A DNA stretch of 64,000 bases, taken from positions 744,001-808,000 of the forward strand of contig NZ_CP058561.1 in the NCBI RefSeq assembly GCF_018141425.1, given 5' to 3'. Positions 21,265 to 51,468 of this stretch are shown piece by piece. Each line of letters opens with the position of its first letter. The first letter of the stretch is position 1. The stretch is from Vallitalea guaymasensis (GTDB lineage: Bacteria > Bacillota > Clostridia > Lachnospirales > Vallitaleaceae). The notes below the pieces were generated by a model that saw only the letters and a list, made by a program, of their open reading frames with translations, made no database searches and was not told the origin of the DNA. The translations under genes were made by a program, and so were the position numbers.

Positions 21265-21511
21265 CAGAAGAAAAAGGGTTTTGTGATTATATTGAAGGGG
21301 ACTACAAGCAAAATAGTATATATATATGTGAAGTAGTGAGACAGGACGTCGAATCCAGCTTTTAATCTGACAGCCCTACTGGACTGTCAGGAATAATAAT
21401 GGACTCGATGTCCATTATTATTCGTTGAGCTCAGGACGAGCAAGTAGCTGGCGTAACATATATATATACTATTTTGCAGAAACCAAGTCAGAACAAATCG
21501 TTTTTTCTGAC
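21265..21511. repeat. 240-bp foldback element, copy 1
   Basis: An imperfect 16-bp terminal inverted repeat (21269-21284 with 21493-21508) encloses a perfect 22-bp inner stem (21308-21329 with 21456-21477). Inside are hairpins around CTGACAG/CTGTCAG (21367-21390) and GGACTCGATGTCC with AT-rich flanks, and a GCTC-AGGAC-GAGC hairpin. The right end holds its own GTCAGAA/TTCTGAC hairpin. Copy 2 at 49946-50192 has the same length with few changes. No open reading frame is evident. It lies 20 bp after the stop of the ABC gene at 21531. Confidence 0.9.
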
Positions 21512-49431: not shown

Positions 49432-49801
49432 CACCTACTTTAAATAATGTACGTAATTCTTCTATATCTTCATCATCAAGTTTCTTACTCCCCAAAAGGG
49501 ATGCTATAAGATTCTTGGCACTACCTGAATACAACTTATCAATTAATTTTTGTGTACTATATTCATTATATTCATTTTCTGTTACCTGAGGTTTATAGTA
49601 GAATACTTCTTTCTTTGTTGCTAGAACAACTTCTTTCTTACAAAGTCTCCTAAGCAATGTTTTTATTGTAGATGTATCCCAATCACTTCTTATCTCAAGT
49701 GTCTTCCTAATATCCGCAATAGGAAGTTCAGTTCCAGCTTCCCATAGAACACGCATAACTTCAAGCTCAGAATCAGAAATTTTGGAAACCAATTTACTCA
49801 T
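49418..49801 (-). CDS. BlaI/MecI-family repressor
   Basis: 127 residues. Winged helix at 1-75 (ISDSELEVMRVLWEAGTELPIADIRKTL...WDTSTIKTLLRRLCKKEVV) and a C-terminal dimerisation and cleavage region (LIASLLGSKKLDDEDIEELRTLF). AGGAG lies 9 nt before ATG 49801; a TTG two codons earlier is too close. It is cotranscribed with the M56 sensor and faces two operator sites. Confidence 0.93.
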   Translation of the reverse strand: MSKLVSKISDSELEVMRVLWEAGTELPIADIRKTLEIRSDWDTSTIKTLLRRLCKKEVVLATKKEVFYYKPQVTENEYNEYSTQKLIDKLYSGSAKNLIASLLGSKKLDDEDIEELRTLFKVGDDSE

Positions 49802-49818
49802 ATACAATTTCTCCTCTC

Positions 49819-49875
49819 AGGTTACATTCGTAACCTACACATATACAGTTTACTCTTGTAACCTCTATTTGTCAA
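49819..49875 (-). promoter_or_regulatory. blaI promoter with two operators
   Basis: TTGACA (49875-49870), 17-bp spacer and TAAACT (49852-49847) on the minus strand. Operator 1 at 49819-49836 is a perfect AGGTTAC-N4-GTAACCT palindrome; a weaker copy at 49847-49864 spans the core promoter, centred 28 bp away. Between here and 49946 there is only a small AGTGACT/AGTCACT repeat. Confidence 0.75.
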
Positions 49876-49945
49876 TATAAAAGTGACTATATAAGTCACT
49901 CTGATTTTATAGATAAAATTTGAAGTAGCCAATAGTTCTACTATT

Positions 49946-50192
49946 TAGAAGAAAAAGAGTTTTGTAAGTATATTGACGATGACTACAAGCAAAATAGTAT
50001 ATGTATATGTGAAGTAGTGAGGCAGGACGCCGAACCCAGCTTTTAATCTGACAGCCCTACTGGACTGTCAGAAATAATTATGGACTCGATGTCCATTATT
50101 ATTTGATGAGCTCAGGACGAGCAAGTAGCTGGCGTAACATATACATATACTATTTTGCAAAAGCCACGTCAGAACAAAACTCTTTTTCTGAC
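49946..50192. repeat. 240-bp foldback element, copy 2
   Basis: A perfect 16-bp terminal inverted repeat (49950-49965 with 50174-50189) encloses a perfect 22-bp stem (49989-50010 with 50137-50158), then the same inner hairpins as copy 1. Relative to copy 1 an A-T pair in the stem is replaced by G-C (50003 with 50144), which keeps pairing. The orientation is the same, and it lies 11 bp after the stop of the antiporter gene. Confidence 0.9.
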
Positions 50193-50202
50193 ATAATTGA
50201 TA

Positions 50203-51468
50203 TTAATCAACAATTACTTTCATCTCATCTATATGTTTCTGTTCCATTTTATCACCATCTAATTCTCCCGCCAATCTAAATCCTTGCTTAGCCAAAATCA
50301 CCGCTATCACTTCATTAATAACAGCTGCCGCAGCAATGGTCCCTTGAATTATCTTAGCATATTCAGGAGCTGGTTGCATAAGAGTACTTACTGCAATACC
50401 TGTAAAAATAAGTGAAACACCTGAATGAGGCAATAATGTAAGCCCTAGATATTTTTTCACTGTTACTGGTGCTTTAGAAATCACAGCACCAATATATGCT
50501 CCTCCTAATTTACCAATGGCACGAGCAACAATATAAACTGCTGTAAAAATACCTGCTCCCGTAATCAAATGAAAATCTAATGGTGCTCCAAGATTAATAA
50601 TGAGAATAACCATAGCTAACATAACCACGATATTTACATCCTTCATTATCTGCTCTAGTCTTTCCTTTGGTATGAGGTTTGCAAAAACAGTTGAAAAAGT
50701 AACACCAACAAGCATTAGATTCATCATAGGTTCTGGTAGAAGATATTCATTAATATACATCCCAATTCCAGTTACCATAACAAGACATGCCAATACTAAT
50801 ATAATCGTGCTTTTACTACCTACTTCTTTTTTTAATACAATTGATGCTAAAAACCCTGTTACAATACCTACTACAATAGACAAAACTATCATAAGTGGTG
50901 CATAGTACAAGGGCATACCTCCACCAGCCAAAACATTAGATACTATCCCTACTACCAAAAAGAAAACAATCAATGCAATTACATCATCTAGGATAGCTAA
51001 AGGCATCAACGTTCTTGTAACTGGTCCTTTCGCTTTATACTCATTGATTATGGATAAAGAAGGTGCTGGTGCAGTTGCTAATGCAATAGCGCCAAAAATG
51101 AACGCTAAATATATTGGAATATCCATAAATGCAAAGATACACCCAAAAGCTATAGTGACAATCAAGAATGTCCCAAAAGCTTCTGTAAAACATATTGTTA
51201 TAATCTGCTTACCTGATTTCTTAAGATCCTTCCAAATCAATTCCGTACCTATAAAAAGTCCTACTGTCACTTCGCAAATACTGCTAATGATATGGAACCA
51301 TGTACTATGCATCATACTATTACTTAACCATCCCAAAGCATATGGTCCAATTATCATCCCAGTCAATAACCATCCCAGTATAGCAGGCATTTTTGCTTTT
51401 GCTACCAATTTACCAACAATCATTGCAATAAAAATAAAACCTATCAATAATATTATTCCTTTTACCAT
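50203..51468 (-). CDS. CPA2-type cation:proton antiporter
   Basis: 421 residues, about 12 membrane helices. GKLVAKAKMPAILGWLLTGMIIGPYALG, IALATAPAPSLSIINEYKAKGPVTRTLMPLAILDDVIAL and PHSGVSLIFTGIA fit the Kef/NapA-like CPA2 family without a TrkA domain. Start ATG 51468 lies 9 nt after GGAGG; other in-frame starts are too close. The TetR gene is immediately upstream and likely controls it. Confidence 0.9.
   Translation of the reverse strand: MVKGIILLIGFIFIAMIVGKLVAKAKMPAILGWLLTGMIIGPYALGWLSNSMMHSTWFHIISSICEVTVGLFIGTELIWKDLKKSGKQIITICFTEAFGTFLIVTIAFGCIFAFMDIPIYLAFIFGAIALATAPAPSLSIINEYKAKGPVTRTLMPLAILDDVIALIVFFLVVGIVSNVLAGGGMPLYYAPLMIVLSIVVGIVTGFLASIVLKKEVGSKSTIILVLACLVMVTGIGMYINEYLLPEPMMNLMLVGVTFSTVFANLIPKERLEQIMKDVNIVVMLAMVILIINLGAPLDFHLITGAGIFTAVYIVARAIGKLGGAYIGAVISKAPVTVKKYLGLTLLPHSGVSLIFTGIAVSTLMQPAPEYAKIIQGTIAAAAVINEVIAVILAKQGFRLAGELDGDKMEQKHIDEMKVIVD

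Follow-up and report, generated by a model that had tools for sequence, protein, structure and literature searches.

A high-copy foldback element of Vallitalea guaymasensis with TwoAYGGAY-like architecture and putative CsrA-binding loops

The binding site published for CsrA/RsmE is an ANGGAN hexaloop, described for CsrA as CANGGANG, and the sponge RNAs CsrB/CsrC and RsmX/Y/Z are described as displaying GGA in small hairpin loops of this ANGGAN type. In the Campylobacter flaA leader, presented as a CsrA antagonist in a species with FliW, two GGA hexaloops lie 21 nt apart and are thought to bind one CsrA dimer. TwoAYGGAY (Rfam RF01731) was introduced as a motif of unknown role: in the account of Weinberg et al. 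(2010) it is probably an RNA and probably not cis-regulatory, and it occurs in the human gut, gamma-Proteobacteria and Clostridiales. A CsrA role was put forward later, when Gardner and Eldai (2014) proposed it as a CsrA-binding small RNA of Clostridia, awaiting validation. The bcr1 repeats of the Bacillus cereus group, to which they are limited, are described as short, dispersed and chromosomal, with mobile features and 11 to 130 copies per genome. Here we analyse a dispersed foldback element of Vallitalea guaymasensis that resembles each of these systems in some respects, the likeness to bcr1 being one of general description.

The window, that is, the whole stretch of 64,000 nucleotides that we analysed, lies in the 5.63-Mb single contig of the host genome (G000). 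An initial annotation had pointed to two foldback copies in it, at 21265-21511 and 49946-50192, with an inner perfect 22-bp stem and one compensatory change. Both copies are present, neither stem has a mismatch (21308-21329 with 21456-21477; 49989-50010 with 50137-50158), and the A-T pair 21322/21463 is indeed G-C at 50003/50144; a further compensatory difference lies in the stem of the first small hairpin, GAC/GTC in copy 1 (21340-21350) and GGC/GCC in copy 2 (50021-50031). The location of the copies stands but their ends do not: the conserved unit reaches somewhat past both, and flank alignment, with ends judged by eye, gives copy 2 an extent of ~49926-50205, common to its subfamily (A, below) and running from TAGCC to a CTTGC-like end.

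The fold comprises the 22-bp basal stem (P2), a three-way junction and two small hairpins, a and b, with ANGGAN or AGGAY loops, all on the + strand. In copy 1, the conserved core, here in its long form of 170 nt (21308-21477), begins and ends with the P2 arms given above, whose columns covary; between them lie hairpin a (loop AGGAC), the covarying P3 arms (21355-21359 pairing with 21447-21451), an extra two-hairpin domain of 64 nt net that the short forms lack (21364-21428), and hairpin b (21429-21441, loop AGGAC). Copy 2 has the same parts: a long-form core of 170 nt (49989-50158), hairpin a with loop AGGAC, P3 arms at 50036-50040 and 50128-50132, the extra domain at 50045-50109 (64 nt net) and hairpin b at 50110-50122, again with loop AGGAC. 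Folding and alignment add an outer stem that pairs 49950-49965 with 50174-50189. The stretch 49940-50200 folds at -98.7 kcal/mol (z -10.6), with 0 of 200 shuffles equally good, and the opposite strand folds equally well or better (z -13.5) because the element is nearly palindromic. The likeness of the two window copies is not due to chance: by blastn the genome has dozens of copies, and a covariance model with neither window copy in its seed, R3, matches exactly two sites in the window, copy 2 at 72.1 bits (E 2.1e-16) and copy 1 at 68.4 bits (E 1.9e-15).

Where the initial annotation had counted two copies, the host genome holds about 80 by blastn and covariance model. Blastn returns full-length relatives, 85-100% identical, and a short form without the inner two hairpins. 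The first covariance model, R1, built from 19 copies, gives at least 82 distinct copies, some of them partial, once overlapping reverse-strand matches and duplicates are removed; its raw figure of 103 for this genome includes reverse-strand matches to the palindromic stem and is not a copy number. R3 likewise gives at least 82 forward matches in the host loci, adding L008:1851-1958 and losing the partial L113; among the 82 listed, 51 are short and 31 long. The loci were drawn from the matches listed, and the true number may exceed 82. Subfamily A, which includes the window copies, has the stem GTATATGTATATGT and GGC/GCC in hairpin a, and subfamily B has the stem GTATAGGGGAATAT and GCC/GGC; the two stems are unlike over much of their length and are paired in both. 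The 64-nt domain also occurs in six long subfamily B copies; a cruder sorting, made for the GC-skew test described below, had placed one A copy (L012) with B. In another genome, G001, four of the listed matches span 227-228 nt and point to a different insert of ~120 nt at the site of this domain.

Several variants were seen alongside these forms. The ~120-nt insert, in L079, L097 and L155 of G001, is a hairpin in its own right, with GGTCACTGAAAAAC arms, and was inspected in full in L079 and L097. Mini foldbacks of 53-55 nt (L072:1047-1101 and L094:1501-1553) extend scarcely beyond the basal stem, their core gone, and may represent either decayed copies or repeats of minimal size. Two species have a third, strongly divergent subfamily (L144:1775-1881 and L153:7510-7616), which combines a GTTAC-type stem and another P3 with the same GGA loops. 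Some copies form close pairs, ~8 to 155 bp apart, of the same or of different subfamilies (L145:1504-1611 and 1717-1823; L046:929-1036 and 1192-1361; L267:1390-1492 and 1501-1609; L008:1535-1704 and 1851-1958). In the decayed copy L062 (G005, contig C43), both small loops read AGAAC and not AGGAC.

The initial annotation had argued from its single compensatory pair for function as folded RNA or single-stranded DNA, and the larger alignments support this. Two-sided changes are found in 28 of 54 pairs in A2 (19 rows); in 24 of 36 in A7 (25 rows aligned by MAFFT with no structure model, 97.5% of cells paired); in 35 of 36 in A9 (41 diverse rows that span 6 genera and four of the order's families, 95.8% paired, an alignment fitted to the model that therefore leans to it); and in 31 of 36 in A10, the host-genome set (98.1% paired). 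None of 500 shuffles reaches the observed covariation score in any of the four, and of the five measures on A7 one, further pair types, is attained in 4 of the 500. Rows of the seed alignments (A1, A2 and A5-A7) were picked by hand, and an alignment with reverse-strand matches, A8, was set aside: L020 is in A1 and absent from A2, which holds its orthologue L061, and A6 and A7 leave out the mispaired A5 rows L143, L024, L144 (second copy), L080, L086, L098, L107 and L108, all but L143 and L024 being back in A9. Covariation is also seen in P3 (5 bp) and in the 3-bp stem of hairpin a; conservation is among the highest at loop and junction positions, and hairpin a is preceded and followed by GA in every one of the 25 A7 rows.

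Across the 82 host copies, changes do not break the stems as often as they keep them, since cells that depart from the subfamily consensus mostly retain pairing (42 of 47 in A, 163 of 193 in B); kin copies share changes, so that these are not independent events. The + strand of the host copies has 36 G.U against 3 A.C cells (18 against 2 distinct column types), one reverse-strand A10 row being excluded from the wobble and departure counts and included in the 31 of 36 pairs above; the corresponding figures are 13 and 1 in A2, 11 and 1 in A7, and 21 and 6 in A9. A strandless DNA palindrome would be expected to show the two about equally, and the excess of G.U therefore marks one strand as the folded one. 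This asymmetry favours RNA, and single-stranded DNA of the + strand would fit too. We consider a role at the RNA level very likely.

Although the initial annotation had left the element unrecognised, and the window copies themselves have no useful Rfam match at default or lax threshold, short divergent copies disclose a relation to TwoAYGGAY. RF01731 matches 11 of 18 loci tested at E up to 0.5. Its gathering score of 43 bits is reached by two of them, L270 (56.8) and L134 of the host genome (43.5), and the nine others lie below it, at 31.8-38.7 bits. Separate lax-threshold searches give 38.3 bits for L085 and 38.7 for L268. At E 0.5 there is no match in the remaining seven (L126, L144, L087, L267, L274, L275 and the window copy L001). 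On account of these matches the element can be read as a derived, high-copy relative of TwoAYGGAY, and that the two are related is nearly certain. Common to both are a basal stem and, on the same strand, a hairpin pair whose loops can be of the AYGGAY type; a tandem GA in a stem is a described TwoAYGGAY feature, and in the element GA stands on either side of hairpin a. AYGGAY occupies both terminal loops in most subfamily B and distant copies but not in the window subfamily, whose loops are AGGAC, with the Y missing. Also unlike TwoAYGGAY are the 64-nt two-hairpin domain, present in 31 of the 82 listed copies, and the ~80 dispersed copies in one genome. Judged by its sequence, the element thus appears to be a TwoAYGGAY variant that is derived and high in copy number, with loops that are shorter and 64 nt of additional domain; a high-copy TwoAYGGAY is not mentioned in the main-text literature passages searched that name the motif.

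The loops themselves vary in a restricted manner. Hairpin a reads AGGAC in 52 of the 82 host copies, AUGGAC in 27, and ACGGAC, AUGGAU and AGGAU in one each. Over the 41 diverse rows it reads AUGGAC in 16, ACGGAC in 6, AGGAC in 6 (one U-G closed), AUGGAU in 4, ACGGAU, AAGGAU and AUGGAG in 2 each, and AAGGAC, AGGAU and AGGGAC (A-U closed) in 1 each, which makes it ANGGA- or AGGA-type in all 41 and C-G closed in 39. Hairpin b reads ACGGAC in 15, AUGGAC in 11, AGGAC in 11, ACGGAU in 3 and a base-shifted AUGGAC in one, with a C-G closing pair in 41 of 41. The second and last loop letters vary, A and GGA stay the same, and so does the closing C-G in nearly every case; this is the pattern published for CsrA/RsmE sites. 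The distance from GGA to GGA is 26-29 nt in 50 of 51 short host copies. Window copies have pentaloops and not hexaloops, and four members of their subfamily (L014, L119, L126, L128) have AUGGAC in one hairpin.

Short hairpins with ANGGAN or GGA loops, in pairs, are a feature of CsrA-binding sponge RNAs that is also found here, and we regard the loops as putative CsrA-binding sites, a reading that we consider fairly probable. Compared with CsrB/CsrC and RsmX/Y/Z, the element has two loops per RNA and a very long basal stem, its copies are many and dispersed, no promoter of its own is recognised and its CsrA binding is putative. The Campylobacter flaA leader differs in being a single mRNA leader with no repeat family.

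Further copies, which the initial annotation had suggested seeking in the genome and its relatives, are found beyond the host as well. R1 matches all six Vallitalea genomes searched, and 22 of 24 stretches from a conserved-pattern search come from two Vallitalea MAGs. Pattern matches in Pantoea and one other bacterium (L165, L172) are taken as chance, R1 missing both at E 0.1. Across the order, R2 matches 12 of 392 genomes at E 1e-4, weakly in G006 (7.7e-7) and G060 (1.2e-5); across the class, R3 matches 8 of 391 at E 1e-5, of which G000 and G060 are also in the order set. Together these searches give 18 distinct carriers, including five of family f45 of another order, a number that may omit weak carriers because the stricter filters were applied. 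Carriers from different families of the order, and from another family of the class, retain the loops and the junction.

A csrA gene is found in 12 of 12 order carriers from the R2 search, compared with 225 of 392 order genomes; counted by genus, in 6 of 6 carrier genera against 110 of 174, which is a weak excess. Among the six further carriers, csrA is present in G129, G519 and G722 and was not detected in G603, G622 and G657 (80, 82 and 95% complete), for a total of 15 of 18. The three negatives are incomplete genomes of one genus, whose fourth member, G722, has csrA. In the host, csrA lies beside ORFs read, from their sequences and with no search, as fliW, flagellins and hook-associated proteins. 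Residues 3-72 of its 77-residue CsrA align to a solved carbon storage regulator, and the HRKEIY stretch, which we take to be part of the RNA-binding surface, is kept. The leader of the second flagellin ORF, as read from the sequence, apparently has GGA in a small hairpin, plus GGAGG, as in other CsrA-hag systems.

Relative to the element, the upstream and downstream genes of the 82 listed host copies run +/+ in 39, -/- in 20, -/+ in 13 and +/- in 9, the upstream gene of one copy being unknown. The upstream ORF is opposite to the element in 33 of 81 copies, where read-through would therefore not yield the folded strand. Sigma-70-like promoters with a score of at least 10 show no excess upstream (10 of 82 on the + strand, 19 of 82 on the other) and an excess downstream (30 of 82 against 8 of 82), from which we infer that the usual site lies between a gene end and the next promoter; we take the downstream + strand scores to be promoters of the next genes. 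A promoter belonging to the element is not supported, there being no upstream + strand excess over the 82 copies, and around copy 2 the promoter scan is near chance (6 found, 4.8 expected). Terminator-like sites number 3 in 49500-50600, with 0.4 expected, and one of them lies outside the core. A replication-strand bias, suggested by a contig-half test (p 0.003), was set aside, as the contig start need not be the origin and local GC skew gives p 0.22. Purine and TPP riboswitches also lie near some copies (L274:2863-2962, -; L268:1715-1816, -; L280:2538-2637, +), probably by chance.

The history of the copies can be followed in a sister genome, G005, which is ~93% identical to the host over most flanks (84-97%). 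Collinear places in the compared part of G005 were obtained for 20 of the 82 host queries, and 13 of these, L133 not being one, were aligned base by base. Four copies are spanned whole (L020, L111, L121, L140), L016 and L046 lack the inner domain in the counterpart, losses in several more are partial and ragged (L004, L142, L034, L042 and L123 among them), and no element can be recognised in G005 for L139, L023 and L134, whose flanks are messy. Most copies that can be judged are thus older than the split of the two genomes. The inner domain would seem to be altered where it stands, recombination among copies being the simplest route. In f6 and f45 the copies sit within still longer inverted repeats: in 12 of 13 folded f6/f45 copies the 70-nt flanks are joined by 50-59 pairs (33 in L295), compared with 12 and 5 in two Vallitalea copies. 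Such long outer repeats were seen in L270, L301, L305 and L308 (G060) and in L297, L304, L299, L300 and L296 (f45), with arms that differ by eye between copies of one genome and are complementary within each.

We propose that the element is a dispersed TwoAYGGAY-type RNA whose loop pair, in transcribed copies, binds a CsrA dimer, so that the family acts as a distributed CsrA sink; from the sequence features described, we judge this the probable explanation. The + strand folds so that the long basal stem and three-way junction display the two small GGA-loop hairpins, in copies that are mostly intergenic and whose fold is kept by paired changes. Transcription of a copy would mostly be as part of a neighbouring gene's 3' untranslated region, its two loops would bind one dimer of host CsrA, and CsrA would be drawn off its messenger targets, the ~80 copies together forming the sink. 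The element may have spread as a non-autonomous repeat by some enzyme acting on it.

The most serious competitor, which we consider rather improbable, is that the element is a non-autonomous mobile DNA repeat of MITE- or REP-like type, whose folded strand serves its own transposition, for instance as a hairpin substrate in single-stranded form, whose loops bind the transposase and which has no host function. Its ~80 copies, of which 71 of the 82 listed overlap no called ORF of at least 70 aa by more than 40 bases (11 do), would suit such a repeat, as would a leading/lagging distribution with no significant bias by local GC skew (47 against 35, p 0.22), the ragged way in which copies shared with the sister genome have decayed there, which neutral repeats would be expected to show, the longer inverted repeats around f6 and f45 copies, and the similar copy numbers described for bcr1. 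Yet the 20 orthologous comparisons reveal no target duplication, the 13 places aligned base by base include no clean empty site, and loops and junction are conserved between families of the order and into another family of the class. A Y1 transposase (Y1_Tnp) was not found in the many-copy drafts G001 and G002 (both ~94% complete), which leaves the REP/RAYT idea unsupported, and no reverse transcriptase was found in G002. The latter result also bears on a retron-like msr-msd repeat, in which the basal stem would be a1/a2, copied in trans by a reverse transcriptase. Retrons have a long end-to-end stem with AGC after it, and so does the element; but G002 has 45 R1 matches and no reverse transcriptase domain, and the four reverse transcriptase ORFs of the host (463-501 aa, near 640, 642, 1568 and 1610 kb) are all more than 20 kb from the nearest listed copies (~617, 1547 and 1642 kb). 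We reject this idea as extremely improbable. Two of these ORFs are arranged back to back in under 3 kb (G000:C1:640002-642824).

Each copy could instead be a cis-acting mRNA element that sets the stability, termination or translation of its neighbour, with or without CsrA. This would accord with the position of the core 8-60 bp from the stop of a convergent downstream gene in 18 of 30 copies, with the co-orientation of element and genes in tandem settings (39 against 20, p 0.018), with the Cis-reg type given to RF01731 in Rfam, and with the terminator-like score, on both strands, of the second hairpin of the copy 2 extra domain (50080-50096). Against it, the window neighbours are unrelated to each other (an ABC transporter, a membrane protein, a penicillinase-repressor type regulator and a Na/H exchanger), both orientations occur, with no significant bias over the 81 copies that have a called upstream ORF (48 against 33, p 0.12), the 51 short copies are without the terminator-like hairpin, none is scored after the copy 2 basal stem, and Weinberg et al. 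(2010) lean away from cis-regulation for TwoAYGGAY; we think it unlikely. The preserved pairing might also be a mutational artefact, hairpin arms correcting each other by template switching with no selection, and the subfamily A changes that keep pairing, 33 two-sided against 9 one-sided, are a high ratio for stepwise compensation. However, the strand-specific wobble is unexpected of a symmetric process, the short hairpin a and P3 stems covary too, and the letters of loops and junction rank with the most conserved; together these points make the artefact very unlikely.

If the distributed sink is real, its weight for the cell is a separate matter, and that such titration has consequences for the host is a tentative suggestion. 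More speculative still is that a selfish repeat has spread paired CsrA sites to ~80 places, the CsrA pool being set by a mobile, distributed RNA sponge of variable copy number; the boldest form would have the element use CsrA for its own spread. If true, Firmicutes could gain their first demonstrated CsrA-sequestering RNA, with a repeat, not a single gene, as its source. Vallitalea has cultured species, and some 80 covarying copies, together with csrA beside flagellar genes, make it a strong system in which to test the question of TwoAYGGAY and CsrA. The element also opens the prospect of a global regulator tuned by a dispersed repeat in place of one small RNA gene.
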